A program made the position numbers and the translations under genes. Positions 2,993 to 47,091 of a stretch of 64,000 nucleotides of DNA are shown one piece after another (position 1 is the first letter of the stretch; each line of letters starts with the position of its first letter). The notes beneath the pieces were generated by a model. The model searched no databases. It saw only the letters and a list, made by a program, of their open reading frames with translations, and had not been told where the DNA came from. The stretch spans positions 1 to 64,000 of the forward strand of contig JADDOH010011228.1 in assembly GCA_016648135.1 (NCBI GenBank), in the 5' to 3' direction. The DNA comes from Agrypnia vestita. Its lineage: Eukaryota > Arthropoda > Insecta > Trichoptera > Phryganeidae.

Positions 2993-3916
2993 TAGTAGAG
3001 CCCTGTTAATTCAAAATTCATGGTACCAAAAAAAAAATTGCGATTGCTAAATTTGTTAAAAATTGTACAACTCGTGAAAAAACTTACCATTACTTTTGTA
3101 AAAAGTTTGTATTTTGCATATTTAAAGAAGTCATTTCAATCAATATTTATTATGCTTTACAAAGATCGCATCGTCTGTTACTAATGTACCTGAAATGCAT
3201 TTATGACACATTTGCTGTTTTCACTTGTAATTTTTTTTTTTTAATATTGTTTATTGCGGTTGCAATTGAAAAAGTTTAGAGGTATCTTTGAATTCATGGA
3301 AGGCTTCTTCAATCTTTTTTAACTTTTGATTCCGGCTTTTTTCTGATATAGACCGACACACAGCACAGTCATTAGAAATCCAATTGTCCATAAACACATG
3401 AAATAATAAGATACTTTAGTAAAAACTTCTTACAAACAAAATTAAACATTTTAGCAGCACAAACACATGCCAAAAGAGGAATTTAACAATGTGAAAAATA
3501 ATTTTAAACTCATAAAGTACGGGAATTAGCGCAAACTAAAACTATCTGTGCATATTGCCACTGAGACAACTGAAAAAGCACGCATAGGATTCCCCAATTT
3601 GAGGGATTGTGACATAATGTGCGTAAATAAAGTGGATTGCACAAGATACCGGGAACTACATAAAGGACATCTTACACGGGGGCGTGCCGTCAAAACACTG
3701 CGCGCTATATTATAACTTGTCGAACAATTACGATTATGCAACTTAAAGTGTGTTGATTTATGGCGCAAGGGTCTAAAGTTATTTTGAATTACCTGGATTT
3801 TCAAATTTTCGCGATTAATCAACATGACATTAATATTTTGAGATTTGCACGCTTTCAAATTTTTGAATTTTGGCAAACTTCGAATTATTGAGGTTCGAAT
3901 TAACAATATTTTACTG
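2993..3916. mobile_element. Degenerate pogo/Tigger-like DNA element
   Basis: The right end reads GAGGTTCGAATTAAC...TTTTACTG before TA, and the left end reads AGCCCTGTTAATTCAAAATTC. Both match the termini of the cleaner 432-bp element at 12085-12516. At ~924 bp it is longer than that MITE and has a ~50-codon open stretch on the - strand (about 3239-3405; it includes DNWISNDCAVCRS). That stretch might be a transposase relic, but I do not recognise it. The 136-residue - strand ORF at 3526-3936 runs across the right end and is not credible as a gene. Confidence 0.5.
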
Positions 3917-15779: not shown

Positions 15780-17728
15780 TCATATGGTGTTGTTACAGTG
15801 GTTCTGGGAGCACTCGTCCGGACAAGGGAACGTGTCTTCCGGAACGCACAGCTGTCCATTAAACACTTTATTTCCCTCACACTGCAGAGTACTCTTCCTC
15901 CTGTCGGTGCAAATGTGGTACGACCTGCAGCGAGACGCCAAGTCCAGGTAGAATCCGTCTTTCTCGCAGGTGATGGGTGGCGCCGAGCAATTTCTGACGG
16001 CGCAAGAGCCCAGCCCGTCGAACGCCTGACCCGAAGGGCAAGTGTGGTGCGATTTCAGTTTAAAGTCTACGCATTTGAAATATTTTCTACATTTGGACCC
16101 GCTCTGTATGTAATATCCGTCGGCCGCGTAGGCGCAGGGATTACCGTCGCGGCCCACGGGACACTGATAGTCCTTGGAGCTGACGCAGCTCTGCCCGTTG
16201 TAAATCTTGCTACCGGAACATTGGATCGTCGCGAGTTTCTCGCCGTTTTCGCAAAAGAAATACTTTCGGCAGTTGGACTGGGTGTCCTGATGGTAACCGT
16301 TGGATTTGCCCTTGCAGGCGTCAGATTGGAACGGGCACTTGTAGCTGTCGGCGCTGACGCATTTTTCTCCGTTGAAAATTTGCGATTCGCCGCACAAATA
16401 GATAATCTTGTAGCCCTTGGAGCACATGTAGTAAGCTCTGCAGCCGCCGCTCGTCTGCTGGTAGTAGCCGTCGGATTTGAAGTCGCACGAGTCCTTCTCC
16501 AAGCTCGGGCAAGTGTAGGTCTCCGAGCGAACGCACTCTTCTCCGTCAAAAATTAGCCCTGTCGGGCAGCTGAAGCTCGTCCTCATCCCGCGGTGGCAAT
16601 GGTAATAGTTCTGACAGTCGGATTCTCTGCTCCGGTCCTGGTAGTAGCCCGAGGCTCTCTCGGCGCAGCCGGCCCAAGGCGCGGGGCCCCGGCAGCTGAA
16701 GCGGTCGGCCGCCACGCAGGCGCCGCCGTCCCACACCTGCCCGGCGGGACAGGACTCCCGAACCGTCACTCTTTCGGAAGAGCAGTAGTAATAGGAAGAA
16801 CAATCCTTAAAGTCTCGGTAGAACCCGTCTTCTCGCTTCCAACATTCGCTTTTCTCGATCGTCACGGGACATTTGTAAACGGCGGACGAGACGCAGGCTT
16901 GTCCGTCGAAGAGAGTTCCTTCGGGACACAGCGCCACCAGGAGGCTGCTGCGATTTTGGCAGTAAAAATATTCCCGACACCCGGAGGCCAGGTCCGCGTG
17001 GAAGCCGTTCCCGCGGCGCGAGCAGCCGTCCACGCACGGCGTGACGGCGGCCGGGGAGCACTTCTCCCCGTCGAAGTGGAAGGACTCGGGGCAGCGGACG
17101 GAGGCCTTGGTCTCGCCGTCCTTGCACAGCACGTAGTCCCGGCAGCGCGCGGCGGACGCGGGGTGGCGCCCGTCGGGCAGGTAGGCGCAGCGGTCCGCCC
17201 CGGCCACGGGGAAGGCCACGGCGGTGGAGCGCGGGCTGGGGCAGCGCGCGGGCGGCTCGGCCGCGCTGTCCACGGCCTCCAGCCGGCCGCCCGAGCACAG
17301 CAGCGCGCGCCGGCAGCCGTGGGTGCTGTCGGGGTGGCGCCCGTCCCGCTGGCCGGTGCACACGGGCTCGTAGCACACGCCGGCCGCGGGCGTGCACTCC
17401 CGCTTCTGCGCGTCGAACCAGGTCCCCGCGGGACACACCGAGTCGGTGGCGACCCCTTCGCCGCACTTGTAGTAGAAGCCGCACCGGGTGCCGGGGGCGG
17501 CGTAGGCGGCCGTCTCGCGCGCGGCGCACAGGTGGCGCACGCAGGCCGCGCTGGCGCGCACCACGCACTCGCGCAGCGCGGGCTGGAAGGCGGTGCCGGC
17601 GGGGCAGGAGTAGAGGCCGGCCACGCGGCCCCCGGAGCAGCGGTAGTACTGCCGGCAGCCGCTCGTGTAGTTGGCCTGCAGCCCTTCCCCGTGGCAGTCG
17701 GGACCCTCGAGGGTAGCCGCCGAAATAC
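15780..17728 (-). CDS. Secreted multi-domain chitin-binding (CBM14) protein, main exon
   Basis: Second coding exon of a peritrophin-A-type protein, encoding residues 18-666 of the model. About eleven six-cysteine CBM14 units follow one another, starting at Cys29 and spaced about 55 residues, with the usual aromatic cores (CRQYYRC, GFYYKC, REYFYC, SSYYYC, QNYYHC, RAYYMC, RKYFFC, RKYFKC) and GxxFDGxxC or GxxFNGxxC ends. The unit near residues 137-200 is atypical: CRRALLC replaces the aromatic core, and cysteine spacing is stretched. The stop is TGA at 15780-15782. The open frame runs past its apparent start to an acceptor at 17729-17730 (GATTACAG), and the exon completes a Gly codon begun by the exon at 56651-56702. 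Family role: binding chitin in cuticle, tracheal lining or gut peritrophic matrix; which of these is not shown. No chitinase, deacetylase or membrane anchor is seen. The 5' third is very GC-rich compared with the 3' part. Confidence 0.93.
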
Positions 17729-18025
17729 CTGTAATCGAGTTTCATTTTTAGTGAGAACAACTTATTTCAACAATGTGATTATTATTATTGTTAGTTATCA
17801 TCCGTTTTATAATATTAGTTATTAGTCATTATTAAAACCCTAATAATAATACGAAATGAGGGTTGATAGCGACAGAAGCAGAGGGCGTCCGCAAAATACT
17901 TACATAACAGGCCGTGTAGTGATTTTTGTATTTAAATAATTAGGGAATTGTTTAACAAAAAATAATAGATAGGTAATGCAAAATAACTAATATGTATTTA
18001 AATGTGAAACAACTATATAATTGTA

Positions 18026-18626
18026 CTAGCTGTTAGTACCCAGCGTTGCACGGGTTAAGGATTAAGTTAAAAATAAGTTTGTGGGAATCTCTAAGAAAAA
18101 ACGATGTTTCCATTAAATCTAGGCTGGGATGGATGGGATATCCAGGGGAAGTAAAATGGCTTATGTTTACCGCCAGGTCTTAAAGAATATATGTAGGTCT
18201 ACGCAAAATTCGGTAGAACGGTACAAATTTGCATTGAAAATATATCAGGGGTGGGGAAGGTGAAAATGGTGCCCACGTTACCCGCTGGGACTTAAAGAAA
18301 AAGTATACCAGATTTGGATTAGATCTGTCGAACGGTACAGCTTTGCTTGGAAAATATATTAGGAGGAGAGGTAAAGAAGGGGGGGAAATGACACTTACGT
18401 TATCCGCCGGCTTTTAAAGAATAAGTATGCAAAATTTGAATCGGATCGGTCGAACGGTACAGATTTGCATGGAAAACGTGTCAGCTGGAGGGGGAGAGGG
18501 GAAATGTTGCCTATGTTACCCGCCGGGTCCTAAAGGATGCGTAATCAAAATATGGGTCAGATCGGACAAACGGTGTAGATTTGTATAGAGAACAGACAGA
18601 AAGACATTGAGTTTTATAGGTATAAA
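18026..18626 (-). mobile_element. Non-autonomous Helitron-like element (family 1) with minisatellite
   Basis: On the - strand the 3' end is CCCGTGCAACGCTGGGT (hairpin-like), then ACAGCTAG followed by T. The 5' end is near TATACCTATAAAACTCAATG. The interior (about 18135-18560) is ~3.5 copies of a ~120-bp unit with the markers CGAACGGTACAGATTTGCAT and GTTACCCGCCGGGTCCTAAA. A short relative is at 42344-42618. Non-coding. Confidence 0.65.
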
Positions 18627-19358
18627 AGTAAAGACGAAGCCATCGGGTGTTTCATAAATTTGTATATGTAGATCTAATTTTGGTGCCCCGAAATTAATAA
18701 AAAATATGAATCCCGAAATTGTGTGGTACTAATCCCGTGAATACTGTAAACTGACCCGAGTCACTGTCCGGAGTCCGGGTTCCCCGGCCAGGTCAGAGTG
18801 CGAAAACATTTTATGGTAAGCGAGTTAGTTAGCTTCATTTTATATATAATTTTATTCAAATGTAAACAAATAAGCTGGCGATAATAAAATCTAAATAAAT
18901 AAACAATCTGCATTGTATTGCATGAACGTGTAATAAATGAATAATAAACGTATGATAATTTTATGCAGAAAAAATCAGGAAATAGCATCTTCTATTCTTT
19001 ACACATCCGGATACCTAATTATGTTATGTATTTATACCTATAGGAACGTGATATCTCGAGTTTTATTAATTCGAGCAGGGACTCTCAATATTATAATATA
19101 ATATAATAAAGCATAATAATATTATATCCGGTATAAATTAATAGTGTGTACATTACGTAGCCTGATTACACATTTTATTAAGTAGTCCTCTTTCCATTTA
19201 AACTAAGAAAAACAATCAAATTAGTATGTTTACGGCTATAAACGCCAACACAACGAAACAATTTGTCTCGTATGCGCGGCTTACACATACTAATACAACT
19301 GTCTTTCTTAAATGAAAAAAGATATTATACATATAAACGTAAAAGTAATAGTGATTGT
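18627..19358. other. Intronic AT-rich DNA
   Basis: No repeat family or exon recognised. The small - strand ORF at 18761-18988 has no family features. Confidence 0.45.
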
Positions 19359-34494: not shown

Positions 34495-36063
34495 GGCGAA
34501 TAATCTGTGAAAAAATAATTATATATCACAGAGTAGGTATATAACATTGCAGTTTTATTTTTACTTTTATTGCTTTTCTATCTATTATTGTTTATTTTTT
34601 AAATGTGTTTTCTACTTAACTATGGTTTGATCTATTTTGTTATTATTACATTTTTAGAAAGTGTTTTTATTAATTGTTCATTTTTAAAATAATGCGTTTT
34701 TACTATTTACTTTTTTTAAATCTCTGATAGTTTATTCAAAAAATGGATTTTTACTTATCATTGTTACATATAATATTTTTATTTTATTGTTTATTTAATA
34801 TTTTTTATAAGTGTTTTACTTTTTATTCCTAATTTTTGTTTATTGTTATAAAACGTATTGTTTTATCATTATTGCATATTGAAAAAGGTTTAATGTTAGG
34901 TGTACTTAAAATACTTGTACTGTATAATATGTGTAATTATAAATAAAAGCCCACAATTGATATTAATAAATCAACTACTTACCGGGGGGTCGAATTCACT
35001 AAACGAGTTCAATAATCGCAACAGTTAGGTACTACATTGATTCAAAATCTTAGATACGAATGAATGAATAGCATGTTTGCAGGTATACCTATCATAAATG
35101 TAAATCACTTCATATTTCAACATTTTAAAGCTTCCAATTTGTAGTTTATTGCTGGATTTCCAGAAAATCTACAACTCAGTTGCCGGTAACCGCGATGGTT
35201 ATCGTGGGATTTTCTGGCTTCAACATTTCCGGTGACATTTTTCTTTCTCATTTGAGTGTCATTATTGACTTAAGACACGCCTTTATTAACTTAAGATTAC
35301 ACTTATTAAACAGATTTGAACCTTTAAAGATTTTATTTCTTTTAAAATTCCGTTTTCTTTTGGTTTCGATACGAGTTGTTCGTGGGAGATACTGTCGAGT
35401 ACCTACTTCCCTCAAATCGATGAAGATACCTATGCAATTACTTGATTTGTTCAATTTACTTTGTATGATGGTGGATGTTTTGCGGTTGCGTCTTGTGTGC
35501 ATATTTCCCCGGTGACTTTTGTGATTGAGTTTAGTCTCTTTTTCACTGCTTATTCAAAGGTTTTAGATATATTAGATAAATAGTATATTACCTAATTCTC
35601 ATTGTTTGTTAAATTAGTTTACACTATCTATATGATTGTAAGTGATTATCCCTCACCACACACAAGAATCATAATTTTTTGGTGAGGTATAACATGTAGG
35701 TATAACATATAAAAAAAATTGAATTGTTAATATTTGCTAGCTATCATTGTAATAAAATATTATATGTATTATCAATTAAATAATAAAAAAAATAAAAAAT
35801 GATGTTTCGAATTTGGTATAAAATTAGTGAAGCTAAAAAGAAAAGAGCGCCATATTTACTTCGCTGCCAAAACATTGCTTTTTTAAAATAGGTATAGTTA
35901 TTATTTAATTTAATTGTAGGTACCTACTTAAAAAATCAAAAGTTTGTGAATAATAATTACATGGTGTGATCGAAGGTGCGTGGCACAGTTGTCATGGATT
36001 ATTGATTCAAATTGTTTGTACAACTCGCTCATACGAGTTTATATGACAAAATCAATATGAATA
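34495..36063. other. Intronic AT-rich DNA
   Basis: Mostly T-rich low-complexity sequence (34500-34950). A 10-bp stem hairpin with CCAGAAAATC and GATTTTCTGG arms sits at about 35159-35219. The overlapping ORFs near 35180-35515 on both strands have no recognisable features. Confidence 0.45.
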
Positions 36064-36065
36064 TC

Positions 36066-36066
36066 A

Positions 36067-36109
<43 letters not shown>

Positions 36110-37621
36110 ACCCGTGTTTCCCTATCCGCCAAGTTTTCTTCACAACCAGATACAGCCAACCCCTGGTGGCTATGGTGGTAGATAGCCCTTGGTGTCACAT
36201 TAAAAATGTGCGAGTTTGGTGGGGGTGGCTGAGCGTGGGGGGGAGTGGCTGACGAAAATGTGCTTCCTAGCACATTGTTTTGTAATGGGAAGGCCGCAAA
36301 TGCTTCATATTGTTCCAGAATGGGCCCGTCGACCATGTCGGTAAGTCTAGAAGATTCGGGAAAAATTCACTCTAGAAAGTTCTGGAAGGAGAACGTTCTA
36401 GAAAAACCCCGAAATTTCTATAAGGTTCCAAACTAAGTGGCGGAGTGTGCCGGTGAGTCAAAAACGTGTCAGAATGTCCAGTAAAGTTCTAGAAAGTTCT
36501 AGAAGGGAAATGTTCTAGAAGATTCCCGAAAGTTCTATAAGGTTCCAAACTAAGAGGTGAGTCTAGAAAGTTCCAGAACGTTCGATAAAGGTCTTGAAAG
36601 TTCTGGTGGCGGAGTGTGTCTGTGACTCTACAAGGTTCCAGACCGTTTGATAAAGTTTAATAATGTTTTGGATGGAGAACGTTCAAGAAGATTCCCAAAA
36701 GTTCTCTAACGTTCCAAACAGTATGGCGGAATGTGTCTGTGAGTTAAGAAGGTTCCAGATCATTTGATAAAGCTCTAGAAAGTTCTGGAAGGAGAATGAT
36801 CTAGAAGATTACTAAAAGTTCTATAAGGTTCCAAACTGAGTAGCGGAGTGTGTCGGTGTGTCCAGAAGGTTCCAGAACGTTCATGAAGGTTCTCGAATGC
36901 TTAGAAGTTTTTGGAAACAGAAAGTTCAAGAAGGTTCTATAAGGTTCTTAACTGAGTGGTGGAGTATGTCGCTGAGTCTAGACGTTCAATAAAACTGTAG
37001 AAAGTCTGGAAAGAGAACGTTTTAAAATATTCCCAAAAGTTCTATAAGGTTGTAAACTGAATGCGGAGTGTATCAGTGAGACCAGAAGATTCCAGAACGT
37101 AAGATTAAGCTCTAGAAAGTTCAGGAAGGAGAACGTTCTAGAAGAATTCAGAACGTTTTATAAGGTTCCAAACAAAGTGGCGGAGTGTTTCGATGACTGT
37201 AAAAGGTTCCAGAAAGTTCGATAAAGTTCTAGAATGTTCTGAAGGAGAACGATCTAGAAAACTCTTCATTCTTCTTAAGAAAGTTCTCTAACGTTCCAAA
37301 CAATGTGGTGGAGTGTGTCTGGGGATCTAGAAGGTTCCAGAATGTTCATGAAGGTTCTCGAATGCTTTAGAAGATTCTGGAAAGAGAAAGTTCAAGAAGG
37401 TTCTTAAAGGTTTAAAACTGAGTGTCGGAGAATGTCGGTGAGTCTAGATAGTTTAGAATGTTCGATAAAGCTCTAGAAAGTTCTAGAAGATTTCTATAAG
37501 GTTCCAAACAAAGTGGCAGAGTGTGTTGGTGACTATAGAAGGTTCCAGAACGTTCGGTAAAGTTCTAAAATGTTAAAGTTCTAAATTATGGTCCCGAGCG
37601 AAGCTGGGCTAATCAGCTAGT
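36066..37621 (+). mobile_element. Helitron-like element with heat-shock-element minisatellite
   Basis: The 3' end is a GTCCCGAGCGAAGCTGGGC hairpin, then TAATCAGCTAG and a T. The left side begins in a (TA)n run at 36067-36110; the exact 5' end is uncertain. Positions 36340-37590 hold about ten diverged tandem units of ~115 bp. Most of each unit is alternating GAA and TTC triplets at 5-bp pitch. For example, TTC 36487, GAA 36492, TTC 36497 and GAA 36502 form one run, and TTC 36513, GAA 36518, TTC 36523, GAA 36528 and TTC 36533 form another. That is the binding pattern of heat-shock factor. Non-coding. Confidence 0.8.
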
Positions 37622-45228: not shown

Positions 45229-45533
45229 ATTAAGATAAATTATAAAAGACTCACAGAGACGAAGCTATGAATATGAGAAACGTATGTGGAAGTCTTTCTA
45301 TGCGATGGCCCAGGCCGAAGGCCCAACCTGTATGAGCTGGCTCTACACAATGCAACGTTCATTAATTCCATTGTGAGGACATCCCACACATTATCAAATT
45401 TTGAAAGTTCTATGGGCATATGTTTTGAGAATCTTTCGTTTATTTGAATGGACTATGCTAGAGACATCTGTAGTCTTTCATCATGAACTAGTATACATAG
45501 ATTTCGTAGCTTACCAGCTGTGATATATAAATA

Positions 45534-46830
45534 TTAGGTCCTTACATATGAAATTGGCGTTTTGCCGTACTGGCAAATTTGATCTCAAATATCTTCTCGT
45601 TGGTTAGGAATTCCATATCCAAATTTATACAGCTATTTACTCATGTATTTGTGTTTTGAAAATTATAATTCATTTGTTTTTTCCTCAATTGTTTTTTTCT
45701 TTGCGTCACTCAGATTACAAAATGAAAAACTTGAAATATCGCGTTATTTACGAGTACGAGTTCCACCGTGGCACCAGTGCTGCAGAAACGGCTCGAAGGA
45801 TTAATGATGTGTATGGCGACGGTGCCGCAAAAGAAAACACAGTGCGTTTTTGGTTCCAACGTTTTCGTTCTGGACCTTTTTTGGAAATTTCGACCTGCAG
45901 AACAAGCCCCGTGGACGGCCGGAGACCAAAGTTGATAATGAAGAATTGAAGGCTATTGTTGAAGCGGATCCATCGCAAACCACATCCGAGTTAGCTGCAG
46001 GCTGCGGTGTTAGTGATAAAACTGTTTTAATCCACTTGAAGCAAATTGATAAGGTGAAAAAGCTTGAAAGGTGGGTACCTTACGAATTGAGTGAAGCAAA
46101 TCAACAAACGCGCGTTGACTGCTGCGTTGCATTACTCAACCGGCACAATAATGACGGGATTTTAAATCGAATCATTACCTGTGATGAAAAGTGGATCCTG
46201 TACGATAATCGGAAGCGCTCATCGCAATGGCTGAACCCTGCCGAACCAGCCAAACCATGCCCCAAGCGAAAATTGACTCCAAAAAAGTTACTTGTGAGCG
46301 TTTGGTGGACTAGTGCTGGTGTCGTTCACTACAGCTTTCTTAAATCTGGCCAGACGATTACGGCAGATGTCTATTGACAGCAACTGCAAACCATGATGGA
46401 AAAGATAGCTGCTAAACAACCGAGGCTGGTTAATCGCTCTAGGCCACTGCTGCTTCATGATAACGCTAGACCACACACTGCACAACAGACGGCTACCAAA
46501 TTAGAGGAGCTTCAATTGGAATGTCTAAGACATCCACCGTACTCTCCGGACCTTGCCCCAACAGATTACCATTTTTTTCGAAATTTGGATAACTTCTTGC
46601 AAAGGAAAAAATTCAACTCCGATGGGGCAGTCCAAAACGCCTTCAAAGATTTTATTGATTCCCGTCCGAATGGTTTTTTTAGTAAAGGGATCGATGAACT
46701 ACCTATGAGAAGGCAAAAGTGCATAGATAGCAATGGTACATACTTTGATTAAATAAATATATTATAATAAAAAAAAATCGGCTTTATGTTTCTCCCATAC
46801 TAAACGCCAATTTCATATGTAAGGACCTAA
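45534..46830 (+). mobile_element. Mariner element, cecropia-type
   Basis: Perfect outer inverted repeats TTAGGTCCTTACATATGAAA and its complement at the right end, flanked by TA (45532-45533 and 46831-46832). 1297 bp, the normal full length. Carries a single transposase ORF with disabling changes (separate entry). Confidence 0.95.
45722..46752 (+). pseudogene. Mariner transposase, disabled
   Basis: Starts at ATG 45722 and ends at TAA 46752. It aligns by eye over the full ~340 residues typical of cecropia-subfamily mariner transposases. The N-terminal helix-turn-helix region includes GTSAAETARRINDVYG. Catalytic positions are visible: first Asp in TCDEKWILYDN, second in LLHDNARPHTA, third in YSPDLAPTDYHFF (the D,D,34D pattern). 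The linker motif WVPYEL is present. Two lesions break it. An extra 11 bp at about 45873-45883, between two GGA triplets, shifts the frame. A TGA at 46375-46377 replaces a sense codon after ADVY. The rest of the frame is intact, which implies a fairly young insertion. It is not expected to make active protein. Confidence 0.92.
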
Positions 46831-47091
46831 TATTCATATTGTGTAGTGATCACGTAAGTCAGCTCATAGACGTTGTAAACCCTAGGCCATCGTATAAAAT
46901 AACTTCCACACACGTTTCTCATATTTATAGCTTCATCTCTGTGAGACTTCTATTCTTCATCTTAATTAATTGATCATCCCTCTGGGGACAAAATCCAGAA
47001 ACTGTGTACTTAGAACATACCTACATATAAACATGTTATGATTTATGATATTTTATTCGTTTATTTATGGAATAGGTACATATCATCTAAA

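Follow-up and report, generated by a model that had tools for sequence, protein, structure and literature searches.

A non-autonomous Helitron from a probable caddisfly genome whose minisatellite is an array of heat-shock elements

Tandem repeats are a feature of DINE-1 relatives, the large repeat arrays of human satellite III (nuclear stress bodies) recruit HSF1 on heat shock and the ONSEN retrotransposon is linked to heat stress. The family described here, from what is probably a caddisfly, differs from satellite III, a pericentromeric GGAAT satellite, in that its arrays are dispersed by a transposon and consist of canonical heat-shock elements (HSEs), and ONSEN is a different element or mechanism. 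The original prediction for this locus had named Helitron-borne HSEs in Caenorhabditis as the known precedent, and the sections of Garrigues et al. 2019 that we cite (PMC6927752) confirm it: in C. elegans 61.4% of genomic HSEs lie in Helitrons, 953 Helitrons contain HSEs and Helitron HSEs are bound by heat-shock factor (HSF). Across the UCSC genomes with annotated Helitrons, the same sections limit HSE enrichment to the three species of Caenorhabditis included there, and the 2019 survey regarded the association as possibly restricted to that genus. The cross-species HSE pattern is printed in section 9 of PMC6927752 as NGAANNTCCNNGGAN and not as the canonical GAA/TTC, possibly through a misprint; if the printed form was really used in the cross-species scan it could have hidden other cases.

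The element also has structural relatives. Like the lepidopteran Helitrons Lep1 and Hel-2 (PMC4038834, PMC4344730), to which we liken it by description, it has a 5' TC, a 3' CTRR (CTAG in Hel-2) and an A/T target; Lep1 and Hel-2 also have a 3' hairpin. Arrays of tandem repeats inside Hel-2 are noted in a figure legend, and the term 'heat shock' is absent from both main texts. Non-autonomous rolling-circle elements with tandem repeats inside them also include minisatellite-bearing Helitrons/Helentrons such as the oyster elements (PMC4067079, PMC7492417), but in the present family the repeat unit is itself an HSE array. The heat-responsive Xuan-Feng Helitron of wheat (PMC13286980) is another heat-linked transposon, but a different element or mechanism, and the portion of that paper cited makes no mention of HSE arrays. 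RNA-seq under heat is available for one caddisfly, Dicosmoecus gilvipes (PMC9581119). Among the papers listed in literature searches, mostly outside subscription journals, none describes, by its title and start of abstract, Helitrons with HSEs from a moth or caddisfly.

The window, a stretch of 64,000 nucleotides, contains a whole non-autonomous Helitron copy of 1569 bp at 36052..37620 (+), delimited by sister copies with unrelated flanks, which begins TC after a host A (the 5' TC possibly lies at 36064) and ends CTAG before a host T. In the sister-copy alignment the 5' terminus (36052..36109, +) consists of TCAATAT and a subsequent (AT)n tract, with TCAATATATA...TAAAAAGAA before ACCCGTGTTTCCC in many copies, and leads into a conserved 5' subterminal region at 36110..36339 (+), ACCCGTGTTTCCCTATCCGCC..., whose alignment is common to long and short subfamilies. 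The minisatellite follows at 36340..37590 (+), and the aligned 3' terminus at 37593..37620 (+), CCCGAGCGAAGCTGGGCTAATCAGCTAG and then the host T, closes the element; in the window copy this end reads GCTAATCAGCTAG before T with its final base at 37620. When 39 further fetched loci were aligned, the flanks were unrelated outside a 5' boundary of A followed by TCAATATATATA...TAAAAAGAAACCCGTGTTTCCC and a 3' boundary of CCCGAGCGAAGCCGGGCTAATCAGCTAG followed by T. The 3' end including the host T was present with at most three substitutions in 33 of 40 long-type loci (the 39 and the window). A TCAAT start was assigned by script in 10 of the 40, with A preceding in nine of the ten, one assignment (L048) being probably spurious and two (L056 and L061) representing one site, and many of the 30 loci without a script assignment show A before TCAATAT by eye. 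For 13 of the 21 loci to which it was applied, a script located both ends, giving lengths of 1,334-2,280 bp from the ACCC block, with doubtful 5' end calls in L031 and L032.

Sister copy L041 was inserted between A and T with no target duplication, as seen from uninterrupted paralogues at 46915..47046 (-) of the window and in L044, L049 and L060; this evidence comes from one insertion at a TTAA-rich target with small indels among the paralogues. Such ends, together with an empty site lacking target duplication, are hallmarks of Helitrons, in keeping with the pattern first proposed, and the element is a non-autonomous Helitron whose minisatellite is the HSE array. The proposal that it ends in a hairpin plus CTAG before T held for the CTAG end, and the hairpin is weaker than proposed: the predicted fold at the 3' end of the window copy does not surpass that of shuffled sequence (z -0.20 and -0.58), and one stem base is unlike that of most sister copies. 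On inspection of the sequences by eye, 8 of 11 listed sister loci retain the whole CCCGAGCGAAGCCGGG inverted repeat. The window paralogue of the L041 target is apparently one end of a mariner-like element at 45229-47046, which comprises two neighbouring open pieces that match Transposase_1 and, slightly below its cut-off, DDE_3, and whose ends are apparently inverted.

A chitin-binding exon, the main open frame of which encodes nine CBM_14 stretches, lies at 15783-17741 (-), 18.6 kb from the Helitron. The best match of its product is to a predicted protein (79%) and the next is to Arctopsyche grandis (Trichoptera, Hydropsychidae), at 61% over 100% of the query, as against 35-41% for three named moth and butterfly proteins (Aricia agestis best, 41%); cricket (45%) and cockroach (43%) both rank above the named Lepidoptera. 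A lepidopteran host, which had been the starting assumption, was rejected on this difference, seen in one protein, and because the closest named protein is that of A. grandis the host is probably a caddisfly, judging from one gene. Hence the orthologue in moths, instead of having diverged, may be missing or lost. The protein comparison indicates that the exon, which has a splice-acceptor-like sequence near 17729, encodes a near-complete protein, and points to a further, short exon upstream, towards higher coordinates; that exon was sought and not found, and a candidate at 54872-54831 was rejected for its weak match (E 1.7) and for having no GT donor where one was expected. The Helitron, first described as lying inside an intron of a chitin-binding gene, may thus lie in that intron or outside the gene. 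Adjoining the chitin-binding exon is a second Helitron-like element at about 18026-18640 (-), with a 122-bp minisatellite of 3.2 copies at 18210-18583 and a 3' end of ...CCCGTGCAACGCTGGGTACTAACAGCTAG before T, which can serve as a ready-made comparison for the array of HSEs.

Within the 1251 bp of 36340-37590, taking an HSE as at least three alternating nGAAn pentamers, there are 36 perfect three-pentamer HSEs (22 beginning GAA and 14 beginning TTC). Perfect HSEs of four pentamers number 16 and those of five pentamers 7, and the other 62.7 kb of the window contains no perfect three-pentamer HSE. The two runs first picked out by eye are both exact motif matches, one of four pentamers (TTC/GAA/TTC/GAA) at 36487..36504 (+) and one of five at 36513..36535 (+), and a motif scan places two perfect seven-pentamer runs in this copy at 36865..36897 (+) and 37330..37362 (+). 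The spacing of GAA to TTC and of TTC to GAA peaks sharply at 5 bp and that of like to like at 10 bp. Shuffled controls were generated from Markov orders 1-4, shuffled 5-mer blocks and shuffled 10-mer blocks with 300 replicates each, and in all six schemes 0/300 replicates reached the observed 36, which agrees with the description of the array as almost solid HSE sequence. Markov order 4 was the strictest control and reproduces much of the array (three-pentamer mean 16.18, maximum 32), equalling the observed count for simple pairs in 5/300 replicates and for four-pentamer runs in 2/300. A density no higher than that of shuffles with the same 10-bp periodicity had been named beforehand as grounds for abandoning the prediction; the nearest control, shuffled 10-mer blocks, gave a mean of 3.27 and a maximum of 10.

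Tandem Repeats Finder (TRF) reports a 117-bp period at 36607-37259 (5.7 copies) with related rows, and a consensus of 169 units from the window and 17 of 20 fetched loci (L030, L032 and L043 were left out as near-duplicates and L026, a near-duplicate of L024, was kept) is likewise 117 bp, in accordance with the ~115 bp originally given. The unit has a leader of ~28 bp, TGAGTGGCGGAGTGTGTCGGTGAGTC-TA, followed by two nine-slot pentamer runs. The first run reads GAA GG TTC CA GAA CG TTC GA TAA AG CTC TA GAA AG TTC TG GAA, a GGA step then shifts the phase by one base, and the second reads GAA CG TTC TA GAA GA TTC CC GAA AG TTC TA TAA GG TTC CA AAC. The consensus therefore recovers the two long phased arrays and 1-bp slip predicted for the ancestral unit, with 4 of 18 slots degenerate (TAA, CTC, TAA, AAC).

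How such a unit arose can be approached through its internal similarity. At lags 10 and 20 self-identity reaches 0.59 and 0.51 respectively, as against 0.10-0.38 at the remaining lags from 3 to 30, and the GAA-to-TTC spacers are strand-asymmetric (nG, with G as second base at 0.72 and C as first base at 0.19), which points to repeat expansion rather than choice by HSF. The TTC-to-GAA spacers prefer YR, matching the HSF consensus TTCTAGAA. Given the spacer asymmetry and the self-similarity at lags 10 and 20, the array probably descends from tandem copies of a directional 10-bp sequence, GAAnGTTCYA. Both features also speak for the chief rival to HSF binding, according to which an ordinary minisatellite grew out of a 10-bp repeat reading TTCnnGAA by chance, and is silenced with no meaningful HSF binding in vivo. 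Triplets that lack convincing constraint (see below) would fit this too, as would the 122-bp minisatellite of the second Helitron-like element, which is without perfect three-pentamer HSEs and indicates that minisatellites are not special here. Against it, 37 of 40 loci (picked by similarity to the window array, near-duplicates included) contain perfect runs six to seven pentamers long, which are strong predicted HSF sequence whatever their origin, and Helitron HSEs are bound in C. elegans according to the cited sections of PMC6927752. We consider a fortuitous, silenced minisatellite unlikely, if a serious competitor, and favour the reading that HSF would bind the arrays on heat shock, with a probability of about 0.7; local effects as enhancers and a titration of HSF could follow from it.

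The host assembly (1.32 Gb) holds many places similar to the window array. From 6,098 first-look candidates 40 were scored (87 matching pieces), and the best piece of each sister copy among these had 77-93% identity to the window array. The original prediction that the array, if mobile, could have spread genome-wide is borne out by 8,508 places with six perfect pentamers, a palindromic pattern, as against 0 for the reversed pattern, and by the family 5' end described below; three-pentamer HSEs number 164,595 compared with 8,649 for the reversed pattern. Tallies of listed six-pentamer, marker and three-pentamer places were made by eye. By this count 50 listed six-pentamer places represent 39 loci (28 places of the first unit type, 19 of the second and 3 of the long type), which puts the perfect six-pentamer loci of the genome at an estimated ~6,600 (8,508 x 39/50). 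Ten loci, hand-picked from those 39 over seven contigs, were fetched and the family 5' end was present in all ten (broken by ~1 kb in L067 and a poorer match in L072). Eight of the ten had a Helitron-like 3' end within 6 edits, with exact CTAG before T in five, and seven of those eight are copies of ~470-525 bp with up to two units and a different 3' end, CTACGCGTGCGAAGCCGCGCGGGCACAGCTAG before T. This short subfamily (L064-L073) joins the 5' end of the long subfamily to another 3' end, as in terminator-switching chimeric Helitrons.

Because HSE-based sampling cannot give the fraction of copies that carry HSEs, an HSE-independent sample was drawn with an 18-base marker outside the array, which occurs at 3,667 places (reversed control 0). 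On contigs C1-C18, which the marker and six-pentamer listings both cover, an HSE of six perfect pentamers lay no more than about 250 bp from 16 of 22 marker places, and one of the other six (C3:290226) had eight three-pentamer HSEs. Comparing the 3,667 marker places with ~4,760 six-pentamer places of unit type 1 (8,508 x 28/50) was rejected as a test of selection since the marker misses whole subfamilies, that of the window included. Among the first 100 listed three-pentamer places (C1 to C3:350164, first contigs that may misrepresent the genome), 67 fell into 8 clusters, defined as at least 5 three-pentamer HSEs within 300 bp, and 33 were scattered. Three clusters are the fetched family copies L064-L066, three more adjoin the family's non-HSE marker and the remaining two (C2:489064, C2:496121) were assigned to the family by unit sequence alone. 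Nine of the 33 scattered HSEs read GAAATTTCCAGAA (e.g. C2:20834, C2:27181, C3:95841), which suggests a second dispersed repeat bearing a single HSE. In public scans 15 viral contigs had one six-pentamer site each, taken as chance, and there were no matches to the element 3' end in public contigs, to the unit leader in viral contigs or to a 21-base array word in prokaryote genomes.

Compared with the Caenorhabditis elements as presented in the cited sections of PMC6927752, the family is alike in being a Helitron with clustered tandem HSEs, and the 67 of the first 100 listed HSEs in array clusters resemble the 61.4% of C. elegans HSEs in Helitrons. It differs in its insect host and in that the HSEs form the body of a ~117-bp minisatellite unit, and its ~6,600 six-pentamer loci stand against 953 HSE-containing Helitrons under differing HSE definitions. 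HSF binding has been shown for the C. elegans Helitron HSEs and is predicted from sequence for the arrays described here. The present family looks like an independent and larger case than Caenorhabditis, and judging by motif content the confinement of HSE-dense Helitrons to that genus does not hold.

Several sister copies share flanks on both sides (L024/L026, L029/L030, L031/L032, L039/L043 and L056/L061) and are thus duplicates or haplotigs and not independent insertions; L028 and L034 have the 5' flank in common. L056 and L061, one insertion site on two contigs, measure 3,116 and 3,856 bp, and L039 and L043 differ in length by about one unit, so that unit number varies between haplotypes or duplicates. 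The flanks of 13 copies, which together with the remainder of the window served as the genomic background, contained 1 perfect three-pentamer HSE in 44,301 bp. The span of three-pentamer HSEs extends well past the main array in L028, L034, L047, L048, L051 and L053, with a second Helitron end near the outlying HSEs of L047, and flanks are therefore not always HSE-free. The difference in array length between L056 and L061 would also suit a role in the transposon cycle, whereby the self-complementarity of the pentamers lets single-stranded intermediates fold or recombine and their resemblance to HSF sites is incidental. GAA and TTC are indeed complementary, and the predicted fold of a 111-nt piece is better than that of most of its shuffles (z -1.79; 8/200 as good), but this folding signal is modest and a simple hairpin needs no 5-bp alternation across 7 pentamers. 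Short copies of two units are moreover common among the fetched six-pentamer loci, so long arrays seem unnecessary for spread, and we hold such a role to be very improbable.

Selection on the motif was assessed on a tree of 412 units by comparing changes per site on internal and terminal branches. In favour of host selection on the HSE content, some copies having been co-opted as heat-shock enhancers, triplets changed less than spacers on internal branches (4.60 vs 8.31, permutation p 0.0002), with a lower internal/terminal ratio (0.426 vs 0.536, Fisher p 0.044). However, the deficit is present on terminal branches too (10.79 vs 15.51, p 0.0017), and the ratio does not differ between triplets and leader on this larger set (p 0.37). 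A smaller cluster-based set, comparing between-type with singleton changes, separated triplets from leader (p 0.038) but gave p 0.29 against spacers for changes between types only and 0.066 with shared variants added, and its singletons already differed between triplets and spacers (p 0.039). The G of GAA (C of TTC) is the base most important to HSF, and it is the most changeable position of the triplet. By base type the triplet deficit is clear at A sites (at T too on terminal branches) and not at G/C, the G/C of triplets mutating about as often as G/C elsewhere in the unit. These comparisons give no convincing sign of selection on the HSE motif, and we regard host co-option as improbable.

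On the reading that we prefer, in which HSF would bind the arrays on heat shock, the array most likely began as the 10-bp directional repeat GAAnGTTCYA, which was built up into the 117-bp unit and then amplified with the element, and rolling-circle transposition has carried the element with its HSE array to thousands of loci. Under heat stress HSF trimers would occupy the longer runs cooperatively, copies next to promoters could become enhancers that respond to heat, and all copies together could compete for HSF. Against this, heterochromatin may keep thousands of copies silent. As a broader and tentative proposal, caddisfly Helitrons may have independently evolved arrays of HSF sites, such that most strong HSEs are transposon-borne and rewire the heat-shock response, form a sink that sets the HSF threshold, or both. 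If this is true then, together with Caenorhabditis, the acquisition of HSEs would be a recurrent and possibly element-beneficial strategy of Helitrons and not a nematode oddity, and if HSF binds the arrays the heat response of an insect could have been rewired or drained, in parallel with the action of related elements in roundworms. It becomes testable whether Helitrons repeatedly gain HSF sites through a benefit to themselves, and whether a transposon family can shift or buffer the heat response of an aquatic insect.
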